From Chloroflexota bacterium (lineage in GTDB: Bacteria > Chloroflexota > Dehalococcoidia > Lucifugimonadales > Lucifugimonadaceae), in NCBI GenBank assembly GCA_018649665.1, contig JABIHL010000100.1, positions 1 to 49,534 on the forward strand: a stretch of 49,534 nucleotides of DNA, in the 5' to 3' direction. Position 1 is the stretch's first letter. Each line of letters starts with the position of its first letter. The position numbers were made by a program, and so were the translations under genes. Below are positions 35,980-42,179 of this stretch, one piece after another. The notes beneath the pieces are model-generated. The model searched no databases. It was not told the DNA's origin and worked only from the letters and a program-made list of their open reading frames with translations.

Positions 35980-37029
35980 ATGCGTAAATCAATTTTGTAC
36001 TTTGCACTTGTTGGGGCACTAGTCATGCTCGCCTCTGCTGCCTGTGCCGGCGCAGATGGCGAGTTGGGATCAACCGGAGCGACCGGACCCGCAGGTCCTC
36101 AAGGAATTGCTGGTGTCGATGGTTCTGATGGTGACACCGGAGCGGCAGGACCAGCCGGAGCTAACGGTTCGGCCGGAGAAAAAGGTGCCACAGGAGCGGC
36201 CGGTGCTAAAGGTATTGCAGGTGCAGCCGGAGCCGCTGGGCCAGCAGGTACAGATGGTCTCGATTGGCCAGGGCTAATTCCAGTGGCATATCTGGAAGCA
36301 GACGGCATTGCTGGTGGTACTGCGTACTCAAAGTGGTACTCCACTGAAGGTGGTGGTACAGGCTCTCCCGACACCGCAGTTGCTGCCGATTTCTACCGCT
36401 GCAAATCTTGCCACGGTTGGGACGGCTTAGGTAATTCTGGTTCATACGCCGACCGCACGGGTCAAAGTTCAGGAAAAACAACTCGACCTGACGTATCAGC
36501 GGTAAACCTCCGTTCATCGGTCCTTCGTGAAACACCCCAAGAGCTATACGATCTGATCGCCCGTCCAACTGGACGAGTGATTGACGCAGCAGACAACACT
36601 CATCCTGCATTTGCAGACGTGTTGACTAGCTCCCAGATATGGAATCTGGTGAAGTTCATGCGTGAAGAATGGGTTGAACCGACTGATCTTTATACCTTGA
36701 AGGTCGAAGGTCCAGTAATGCACTGGGACTACTCAACCGATCCACCAACGCTAATCAAACCGACTAGGTCCTACTCGGACATTGGTATTGGTGGAAACAA
36801 GTCCAGAGGTGAGGTGATCTTTGCTCAGGACTGTGCTTCCTGCCACAACGAAACAGGAACCGGTCTCGGAATGTCAGTAGGAGCACTCGTTCGAAGCAAG
36901 CCGCACGAAATATGGCTAAAAGCCAAATTTGGTGAACCGGGACACATGCCTGCCGGTTTGGTAACCGATCTTCAGGATCTGAAAGACCTCTTCCAGGCGC
37001 TGATCAACGAAGATAAGTTTCCCGACTAA
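35980..37029 (+). CDS. Diheme cytochrome c with N-terminal collagen-like Gly-X-Y domain
   Basis: Signal ending LASAAC, then 24 consecutive G-X-Y triplets (GADGELGSTGATGPAGPQ...GTDGLD), heme motifs CKSCH and CASCH; alternative start 35959. Confidence 0.85.
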   Translation: MRKSILYFALVGALVMLASAACAGADGELGSTGATGPAGPQGIAGVDGSDGDTGAAGPAGANGSAGEKGATGAAGAKGIAGAAGAAGPAGTDGLDWPGLIPVAYLEADGIAGGTAYSKWYSTEGGGTGSPDTAVAADFYRCKSCHGWDGLGNSGSYADRTGQSSGKTTRPDVSAVNLRSSVLRETPQELYDLIARPTGRVIDAADNTHPAFADVLTSSQIWNLVKFMREEWVEPTDLYTLKVEGPVMHWDYSTDPPTLIKPTRSYSDIGIGGNKSRGEVIFAQDCASCHNETGTGLGMSVGALVRSKPHEIWLKAKFGEPGHMPAGLVTDLQDLKDLFQALINEDKFPD

Positions 37030-37061
37030 AACAGGGGGTATTGACTAGGTCCAAGCCTAAT

Positions 37062-37091
37062 AAGGAGGTCAGGGAGTTTCCTGACCTCCTT
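37062..37091 (+). terminator. Intrinsic terminator after first collagen-cytochrome gene
   Basis: AAGGAGGTCAGG-GAGTTT-CCTGACCTCCTT, 12-bp perfect stem, then TATTT. Confidence 0.85.
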
Positions 37092-37271
37092 TATTTGGGA
37101 TCGGGAATGAAAAATTTTGAATATTCAGGGCTGGGACGTGGTAACTTTTCACCAATTGTTGGGAACACACATGAAATCTTCATTCAACTCGATTGAGGTG
37201 TCTGTCGACCATTAGATATCGTTCAATGCAACGTAGTGCGGGCTGGCTTTTTATTCTCGGGGGAATGCAGA

Positions 37272-39613: not shown

Positions 39614-40239
39614 TCCAGTTCCCTACTGCCCTCCTCAGTCGATCTAAGCAGTTGCTAGGCGCACTGGCGATTGCCATGGTGCTTGCAGGTGTGATGGGCT
39701 GGTCGTCGATCGCATCGGCACAGCAGCCGGTACCAAGCGTCAATCTCGGTTTCGAGCCTAGTGCTCTACCAGGCGAAACGATTGCTGTATCGGCTTACCT
39801 GACCGACCCGCTTGGCAACCCTATTTACGATGCTGAGATCGAGTTTCACTACGATGTCGAATTCATGAACGTTACCGACGCTGTAGAGATCGGCACAGCA
39901 ATCACTGACGACACAGGCTTGGCGTTGCTCACGTGGCAACCTCGATCCGATGGAGAAAACCATATTGTTGCCGCATTCGTCGGAAACGACGTTTTCGCAG
40001 CTGCAAGTGACACGCAAATTCTCCAGGTTCTACCCGGCGAGCAGCTCTATCGTGAGCTACCTCCGTACAGAATCCCGGGTGCCAATATCTGGCTCACCAG
40101 TGGACTAATCACGACTGTATGGATGATCTTCATATTTAGTCTTGCACTAGTTGGTTGGGCGAATCTCAAAACCAGAAATGAACCGCATCCGATCGGTCCG
40201 AGCAGTTCTGAAGTCGAGGGAGACAGCACAGATGCTTAA
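39610..40239 (+). CDS. Exported Ig-like-fold protein with C-terminal transmembrane anchor
   Basis: Signal ...ASAQQPVPSV; Ig-like pattern PGETIAVSAYLTDPLGNPIYDAEIEFHYDVEF...AITDDTGLALLTWQP; C-terminal TM WLTSGLITTVWMIFIFSLALVGW; ATGA overlap with NrfD gene. Confidence 0.7.
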   Translation: MIQFPTALLSRSKQLLGALAIAMVLAGVMGWSSIASAQQPVPSVNLGFEPSALPGETIAVSAYLTDPLGNPIYDAEIEFHYDVEFMNVTDAVEIGTAITDDTGLALLTWQPRSDGENHIVAAFVGNDVFAAASDTQILQVLPGEQLYRELPPYRIPGANIWLTSGLITTVWMIFIFSLALVGWANLKTRNEPHPIGPSSSEVEGDSTDA

Positions 40240-41152
40240 CCTCCTAAACCTTCCAAAGAACGCAGGAATAATCGGCCCGTTCATCGGGGTAGTCATTCTG
40301 CTAACCACAGTTCTAGTGTTGGTTCTTCAGATGACGATTCGCCCTTGGGCTGATGACAACTATGGTTCACAAACTCACCTGAGCATGGTGGAAGAGCTGA
40401 ACGGCTACTCACGCACAGAACTCACGTACATCGGTGATGTTTCTGAGGCACCGCTTGGTTGGGAGCCGTCAGATCTCGCACGTGCTTCTAGCGAAGGTTA
40501 TGCCGAGTTCGTTGGGTACGGCTGCGCAAGCTGTCACGGTCTAGATGGGCAGGGTTCAAACTCCGTTCCATCGGTTACCGGCACAACATCGCGCCGACTC
40601 GCTAACATGCTCGAAAAAGGCCCAAAGACGATGCCTGCCTACGCTGACACGCATTTAGTTGGAGCCGATATGGAAGCGATCGCAGCGTATTTGGGTAGTT
40701 TTGCGGAAGCGACACCGACACCGGAACCAATTGTTCGCCTAACAGCGACTCCGTTCCCGATGCCGACTGCTACAGCAGCGCCGATTGCAGAGCCAACGGC
40801 AACGCCAGTACCAGTTGCCACTTTGGCTCCGGGTGCACCGACGCCTACGCCTTCGCCTACACCTGAACCAACAGCAACCCCGGCACCGGTCGATACTGCG
40901 CATCTCGAAAATGCACAGCGACTGTTCTTTGATGTGGGTTGTGATATCTGCCACGGCGAACTCGCCGAAGGTACTTCGGATGGTCCGACTATCGAAGATA
41001 TGACCGGCGAAGAAATAAGAGATTTTGTTCGTGATCCTCAACGCCCAGCTGGATCGAAATTCAGCGAAGCAATGGATCCATACGACACCGGATCGCTAAG
41101 TGAGGAAGAGTTGGATGAAATCATCTTCTTCTTGCTCAACCGCCAGAACTAA
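40232..41152 (+). CDS. Membrane-anchored cytochrome c with two heme domains separated by a Pro/Thr/Ala-rich linker
   Basis: N-terminal [16 protein letters not shown] and [14 protein letters not shown]; linker [18 protein letters not shown]; start ATG 40232 overlapping the upstream stop (track start 40151). Confidence 0.85.
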
Positions 41153-41186
41153 TAACGACAATAACAACGGATTACTGGAGAGAACA

Positions 41187-42179
41187 TTGCAAGCGCATTT
41201 TGCAAAACCGCTACGCCCGATCTTGATGATCGTGCTCGGCATCCTGTTCGTCATCCCGCTCGCCTGTCAGGGCGCTGAGGGTGAAGACGGTCATGCAGGT
41301 CCGGTCGGACCCCCCGGACGGCCGGGTGTGACAGGTCTTGAAGGTAATACCGGAGGCCCCGGCGCTACCGGTGGCGCAGGCCCTGCTGGCCCAGTCGGCG
41401 AAGACGGACCTCAGGGCCCAGCAGGGCCACAGGGAGCCGCTGTAGCTTTGGCTGACGTCCAGTCGATGGTCGATCTTGCGGTGGTAAATCTCGCTAACAT
41501 CGATTCAGATGCCGACAAGATCGCTCTTGGTGGGCGCCTGTACGACAACTGGATGTTGGAAAGTGGAATCGAAGCCCTTCCGGGCGACCACCCACTTTGG
41601 TCTGACCAGACTACGAATGCGCTGACGGAAGCTGCGACTTTCCGATGTAAGGAATGTCACGGCTGGGATTACAAGGGCGAGACCGGTGCGTATGCTTCCG
41701 GTTCGCACTTCACAGGGTTCACTGGTGTAATGCGCGCCGGCAAGACGATGTCGAAAGACGATCTTGTTCAAGTACTCCGTGGTGGGTTCAACGCCAATCA
41801 CGACTTCCGATTCGACATCTCTCGAAAGAATCTCGATGCCCTTGCTACGTTCCTTGATCTCGGACTAGAAAACTACTCTGAGTTCATCGACTACGACACG
41901 AAGCTGCCTCGACAAATCCCCGTAATGGCAAACGGCGAGACTCGATACACTCGAACCTGTGCCGGTTGTCACGGAGCTGATGGCAAGAACCTCAACTTCA
42001 AGACGGTTGCAACACCACAGTACCTTGGCGATATCGCAGTCGGTAACCCGTGGGAATTCTTGCACAAAGCTCTCTACGGTCAACCTGGTGTGAGCGGAAT
42101 GCCTCCGGTTTCGACTCGTGGATGGTCGGATCAAGATCTAACCGATCTGCTGGCATACGTTCAGTCACTGGCTGACTAG
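41187..42179 (+). CDS. Second diheme cytochrome c with N-terminal collagen-like Gly-X-Y domain
   Basis: Signal ending VIPLAC, then 19 consecutive G-X-Y triplets ([18 protein letters not shown]...GAA), heme motifs CKECH and CAGCH; TTG start with GGAGAG SD (track start 41100). Confidence 0.85.

Follow-up and report, generated by a model that had tools for sequence, protein, structure and literature searches.

Diheme cytochromes with collagen-like stalks in a predicted periplasmic nitrate reductase operon of a Chloroflexota bacterium

Two genes of the Chloroflexota contig analysed here (the window, 49,534 nucleotides, taken from a draft MAG that is 86% complete) encode diheme cytochromes in which a run of collagen-like Gly-X-Y triplets separates the signal peptide from the heme domains, and the locus raises the question of what such a segment does on an electron carrier. 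Stalked diheme cytochrome 1 (35980..37029, forward strand) comprises a signal peptide, a Cys codon at 36043-36045, a stalk of 24 triplets (36049..36264, forward strand) that would be ~20.6 nm long as a triple helix, and two CXXCH motifs (36400-36414 and 36832-36846). Stalked diheme cytochrome 2 (41187..42179, forward strand) comprises a signal peptide, a Cys codon at 41265-41267, a stalk of 19 triplets (41271..41441, forward strand; ~16.3 nm if a triple helix), a 29-residue neck (41442..41528, forward strand) and two CXXCH motifs (41646-41660 and 41958-41972). Both open reading frames are listed with alternative starts (35959/35980-37029 and 41100/41187-42179), and the starts at 35980 (ATG) and 41187 (TTG) match those of the orthologues. 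The triplet counts given in the initial annotation, together with its CKSCH and CASCH motifs in cytochrome 1 and CKECH and CAGCH motifs in cytochrome 2, agree with the reading frames, the Pfam matches and the motif positions; the stalk does directly follow a signal peptide ending in Cys, as had been stated, with the repeat beginning at Cys+2 in both proteins.

The Pfam Collagen model gives 40.7 bits for cytochrome 1 and 28.7 bits for cytochrome 2 (cut-off 27.2), and two cytochrome c stretches exceed the Pfam cut-off in each protein. At the Gly frequency of the window, 0.076, the chance of such Gly-X-Y runs is ~1e-27 per start for 24 triplets and ~5e-22 for 19. That the stalks are an artefact of DNA tandem repetition is ruled out by Gly codons of mixed kinds in both of them, by 9-mers that are all distinct (24/24 in stalk 1 and 19/19 in stalk 2) and by our finding no DNA tandem repeat beneath either stalk. 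In a monomeric AF2 model of cytochrome 1, the C-terminal part accounts for most of the confident prediction, the stalk having a pLDDT <50, and a Foldseek search with this model returned no match with E <0.001, the best hits being QcrC and cyt c6.

When the stalks are left out of the comparison, hhalign shows homology between the heme domains of cytochromes 1 and 2 (local probability 99.2%, E 1e-19, 189 columns). The two are true paralogues outside the repeat, which bears out the shared heme-domain layout noticed earlier. His215 and Met330 of cytochrome 1 and His234 and Met334 of cytochrome 2 are invariant in their own alignments; because the assignment of axial ligands is unstable on the superfamily alignment, we make no claim about them. 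We regard it as highly improbable that the stalked cytochromes are enzymes, such as TsdA-like thiosulfate dehydrogenases, the label that the source annotation attaches to several cytochrome 2 homologues. They resemble TsdA in being diheme class I-type cytochromes, but the SoxA/TsdA Pfam model PF21342 reaches 14.6 bits, below its cut-off of 27, and neither alignment contains an invariant Cys beyond those of the lipobox and the CXXCH motifs, so that there is no ligand candidate for the His/Cys heme of TsdA. The thiosulfate dehydrogenase identity was rejected on these two grounds.

Judged from gene content and order, the stalked cytochrome genes sit in a periplasmic nitrate reductase (Nap) operon, of which at least one of the two, that of cytochrome 2, is a member. 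The cluster opens with NapA, the catalytic subunit, which carries a Tat signal (29938..32391, forward strand; NCBIfam NF010055 1165 bits, cut-off 904; TIGR01706 1124 bits, cut-off 930.55; best PDB match the NapA 3ml1_A), and with the diheme subunit NapB (32361..33026, forward strand; PF03892 80.5 bits, cut-off 25.1; PDB NapB 1ogy_B, E 1.2e-14), on which the NCBIfam NapB equivalog scores 49.9 bits, below its cut-off of 230. NapB has a lipoprotein-type signal (Cys36) followed by a long Pro/Thr/Ala-rich linker that extends up to the heme domain. A sensor histidine kinase of the NarX/UhpB type with HAMP and HisKA_3 domains (33195..35033, forward strand) and a NarL/MadR-type response regulator (35045..35719, reverse strand), both recognised by Pfam and NCBIfam models, precede cytochrome 1. 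Downstream of the latter lie genes for a Tat-exported four-cluster-type ferredoxin (37236..38273, forward strand), which resembles DsrO, NrfC and the C-terminal part of ActB (NCBIfam DsrO 154 bits, below the equivalog cut-off of 200; PDB matches to ArrB, PsrB and ActB), and for an NrfD-type integral membrane subunit predicted to oxidise quinol (38255..39613, forward strand; PF03916 117.5 bits; best PDB match ActC of alternative complex III, 6btm_C, E 6e-42). These are followed by a secreted Ig-like domain protein with a C-terminal membrane helix (39610..40239, forward strand; Big_3_5/Big_1 match below cut-off at E 1e-4), which has orthologues at L011, L138 and L170, and by a diheme cytochrome that is anchored in the membrane and whose two hemes are separated by a Pro/Thr/Ala-rich linker (40232..41152, listed ORF start 40151, forward strand; identified by Pfam, NCBIfam QcrC-like). 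Cytochrome 2 comes last, and a symmetrical terminator (42200..42234) ends the operon, facing a convergent Ldh_2 gene. This Nap/NrfD setting, from which the pathway assignment derives, does not figure in the interpretation given by the initial annotation.

The order NapA, NapB, Fe-S protein, NrfD, Ig-like protein, transmembrane (TM) cytochrome, stalked cytochrome 2 is kept in the sister species G014 (locus L138, in which the Ig frame was identified by direct reading of the sequence), with identities to the window of 94-95% for NapA, the Fe-S protein and NrfD and 83% for cytochrome 2. The kinase, the regulator and cytochrome 1 are missing between NapB and the Fe-S protein of this sister operon, and the segment 33195-37029 is therefore read as an added cassette. 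Among 100 related genomes, only that of the window yielded cytochrome 1, and of 396 members of the class two did. Two genomes of another genus (G054 and G059) have the same core operon, split over contigs. Full-length cytochrome 2 is present in four and NapA in five of the 100 related genomes, all four cytochrome 2 genomes having NapA, a co-occurrence for which the hypergeometric probability of 1.3e-6 is optimistic, as the four genomes behind it form two related pairs. The fifth NapA genome (G005) has NapAB and no cytochrome 2 that we could find, the sequence adjoining NapAB being masked. The proposal that the stalked proteins take part in extracytoplasmic electron transfer is supported.

A NapC/NirT tetraheme protein (PF03264) is absent from all five NapA genomes, and NapH (TIGR02163) reaches at most 29 bits in all five, against a cut-off of 213. 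The module of NrfD, Fe-S protein and cytochromes is consequently the only link from quinol to Nap that was found. We favour, with moderate confidence, a model in which a Chloroflexota-like single-membrane bacterium runs an extracytoplasmic nitrate-respiration chain whose redox domains are not soluble but tethered by collagen-like, lipid-anchored stalks. The model is built on gene content, gene order, conservation, co-occurrence, the phase of the stalks and the swapping of anchors, from which we infer the order of electron transfer, lipidation, tether function, trimerisation and nitrate as the in vivo substrate. The NrfD-type subunit would oxidise menaquinol, and the Tat-exported Fe-S protein would hand the electrons on to the membrane diheme cytochrome; cytochrome 2, collagen-stalked and lipid-anchored, would receive them next, followed by the NapB lipoprotein and finally by NapA, which would reduce nitrate. 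The collagen-like segment, starting from a lipidated Cys, would be a tether, semi-rigid and adjustable in length, that keeps the heme head in the cell-wall zone and prevents it from diffusing away; the long linkers of NapB and of the TM cytochrome were likewise counted towards tethering. Cytochrome 1 would have arrived with the two-component system as a cassette and probably provides a second, regulated outlet or a relay.

The stalk can be followed through both cytochrome families. The cytochrome 1 family is present across many phyla, and in a sample of its best 120 homologues 118 keep the N-terminal Cys, the other two being truncated proteins. Gly occupies Cys+2 in 115 of these 118, and in 107 the repeat runs unbroken and in phase from Cys+2 to the heme domain, over 4-39 triplets. 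An independent sample, fetched by heme-region patterns, contains 23 members of the cytochrome 1 clade, of which 22 are stalked; the sole unstalked one, a Thermoleophilia orthologue, carries three SLH domains (E 1e-26) in the stalk's place, which points to surface anchoring. Among relatives of cytochrome 2, the linker is collagen (7-26 triplets), rich in Pro/Thr or short, and some of these relatives are tandem four-heme forms that lack a stalk. On a tree of 117 heme domains, nine changes of the stalk label are required, and well-supported branches force at least six of them; the window proteins fall into two separate stalked clades with unstalked relatives between them. This pattern makes repeated gain or loss of the stalk likely. 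Homologues lacking the repeat, which had been named as evidence against the original interpretation, do occur, but only outside the two stalked clades, the repeat being nearly universal inside the cytochrome 1 family.

These data bear on the possibility, which we do not favour but to which we give appreciable weight, that the Gly-X-Y run is an unstructured low-complexity spacer that forms no trimer and for which any hydrophilic linker would serve. Such a spacer would be compatible with the Pro/Thr linkers, SLH domains or short linkers that replace the stalk in relatives, with the absence of an evident trimerisation domain from cytochrome 1, and with the runs of 4-6 triplets that are common in the cytochrome 1 family; at that length trimerisation is unlikely, a stable triple helix not being expected without another trimerisation element. 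A random spacer would not, however, need to keep the Gly phase over long runs while its length varies, and the X and Y positions of stalk 2 have a collagen-like composition, with Pro at X. Furthermore, all 33 stalked cytochrome 2 proteins in the comparison have a neck of 25-30 residues behind the stalk, whereas unstalked ones have none, and this element of constant length is a candidate for trimerisation. A coiled-coil structure of the neck found no confirmation, as heptad and hydrophobic-moment (helical-moment) shuffle tests were not significant despite its constant length and strict association with the stalk.

The initial annotation regarded lipidation of the Cys as uncertain, the lipobox being non-canonical at position −3. 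This holds for both window proteins, which have Ser (cytochrome 1) and Pro (cytochrome 2) at −3 and Ala at −1, yet position −3 is L/F/V/M/I in 106 and position −1 is A/G in 114 of the 118 cytochrome 1 homologues, and the N-terminal Cys is invariant in both cytochrome alignments. The stalks are probably lipid-anchored. Omp85 is missing from all five NapA genomes, in line with a predicted single-membrane envelope, in which lipid anchoring would have a reason.

The stalked cytochromes might alternatively be terminals of extracellular electron transfer, their heads lifted through the wall to reduce minerals, humics or partner cells, with the Nap neighbourhood partly coincidental. The family is indeed found without NapA. 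In a more distant Dehalococcoidia genome that has no true NapA, the L011 locus encodes the kinase, the regulator, the Fe-S protein, NrfD, the Ig-like protein, the TM cytochrome and both stalked cytochromes, and the module can therefore serve another acceptor; a further genome (G072) has cytochrome 2 relatives, with NapA not found, and cytochrome 1 homologues stand alone in several other phyla. The wider stalked-cytochrome family is not tied to nitrate. The SLH surface anchors of the one orthologue and the location of cytochrome 1 outside the core Nap operon would also suit extracellular terminals. Three features nevertheless make such a role unlikely: (i) the strict synteny and co-occurrence of cytochrome 2 and NapA in four genomes, (ii) the presence of only two hemes per chain, in an operon that encodes neither a multiheme wire nor a nanowire, and (iii) the stalks of homologues from diderm phyla, which mostly have 12 triplets or fewer and are then too short to span an envelope.

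Within the preferred model of a tethered nitrate-respiration chain, stalks of 19-24 triplets may form a triple helix and thereby cluster three diheme heads, and trimerisation is plausible at this length. A more far-reaching version holds that each stalk trimer shows three diheme heads in register as a lipid-anchored six-heme cluster of tunable height, through which electrons would cross the wall zone in bacteria with a single membrane, and that the collagen triple helix is a general respiratory scaffold recurring on unrelated clades of the cytochrome superfamily in several phyla; this version is tentative and, in our estimate, doubtful. A point against the preferred model is that a rigid stalk of 16-20 nm could hinder rather than aid transfer from a membrane complex.

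Collagen-like stalks extend beyond the cytochromes. In the source genome, four further proteins have a lipoprotein-type signal and a collagen stalk but carry unrelated heads, for example a trypsin-like protease and an Ig-like one. Collagen domains are present in 93 of 100 related genomes versus 3 of 14 control genomes, and the repeats of the related genomes are mostly carried by lipoproteins with unrelated heads. The stalk begins at Cys+2 in 29 of 40 sampled cases, a few of the 40 rows being duplicates or a reverse-strand artefact. Neither this genome-wide reuse of the stalk nor the SLH domains or Pro/Thr linkers that stand in for it in relatives had entered the earlier interpretation.

The window system shares with NapAB systems that use NapC or NapGH a clearly recognisable NapA and NapB and a quinol-dependent extracytoplasmic chain. 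It differs from them in having no NapC and no NapH above cut-off, in a donor module composed of NrfD, Fe-S protein, TM cytochrome and collagen-stalked cytochrome, and in a NapB with a lipoprotein signal and a long linker. The NrfD-type membrane subunit and the Tat-exported multi-cluster Fe-S protein are features of alternative complex III and of the DsrMKJOP, Qrc and Psr complexes as well, but the cytochromes of the window operon are tethered diheme proteins, and the operon, by its reading frames and domains, has neither a pentaheme ActA nor a fused subunit of ActB size. Membership in alternative complex III was rejected for these two absences, despite the ActC-like NrfD.

To our knowledge, the described bacterial collagen-like surface proteins are adhesins or efflux components, with no cytochrome among them. 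The window proteins have in common with Scl1/2, Lcl and Bucl8 a Gly-X-Y domain in an exported protein, but the curated SclA, SclB and Lcl models give them 25-43 bits against cut-offs of 325-500. Such proteins are sometimes lipoproteins, as predicted for Bucl8, which has a collagen-like region (PMC4565658). Denitrification proteins of Gram-positive Bacillus tend to be membrane-bound or lipoproteins (PMC3475470), an established answer to the same lack of an outer membrane, in which lipid or membrane helices hold the redox proteins outside the cytoplasm; no collagen-like stalk is mentioned for Bacillus in the passages considered. A full-text literature search, which covered few subscription papers and is weak evidence for that reason, returned no report of a collagen-stalked cytochrome, and the earlier statement that no family with a collagen stalk and a diheme cytochrome has been described stands for the literature searches made. 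Collagen-like proteins, Nap and NrfD modules are already known; the collagen tether is the new element in the combination.

The known roles of collagen-like proteins in bacteria are mainly those of adhesins and surface coats. In this operon, the collagen-like fold would be structural hardware of a respiratory chain, for which a collagen-like protein seems to serve as a tether in the window's bacterium. The model offers a testable answer to how a bacterium that is free of an outer membrane runs a 'periplasmic' nitrate reductase: every mobile carrier would be tethered. It also brings into view a cytochrome family that crosses phyla and in which stalk length is the only fast-changing part, so that the length of the tether may be compared with the type of envelope.

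NapB (32361-33026) carries a lipoprotein-type cysteine and a long Pro/Thr/Ala-rich linker, features that it shares with the NapB of the related genome G005 (locus L166) and that are unusual in this otherwise, as a rule, soluble subunit. The membrane diheme cytochrome (40232-41152) also contains a Pro/Thr/Ala-rich linker, of about 70 residues, which joins its two haem domains. In the Thermoleophilia orthologue of cytochrome 1 (locus L018, 9266-10765), three N-terminal SLH domains occupy the place where the collagen stalk would be, and this diheme cytochrome is probably anchored to the cell wall.

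Four more collagen-stalk proteins are encoded on contigs C163, C33, C128 and C28 of the source genome (loci L001-L004). Their signals are of the lipoprotein type and their heads are unrelated: one protein is short and Ig/adhesin-like, one is a trypsin-like protease, and two are long proteins, both with repeats of the form IGxDGxPxISYYD. Collagen-like proteins of relatives (loci L092, L103 and L114) have 40-42 triplets and lack the lipobox cysteine, which a membrane helix seems to replace as the anchor.

The window on either side of this region (1-28000 and 42251-49534) is densely packed with carbon-metabolism genes, including those for enolase-superfamily proteins, a luciferase-like monooxygenase, several TPP enzymes, MFS and Ldh_2, a mix that we take to be reminiscent of SAR202-type Chloroflexota.

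Several further genomes of this class have a NarX/NarL-type two-component pair beside their cytochrome 2 homologues (loci L139, L140, L145, L149 and L150), which suggests a recurring regulatory link.
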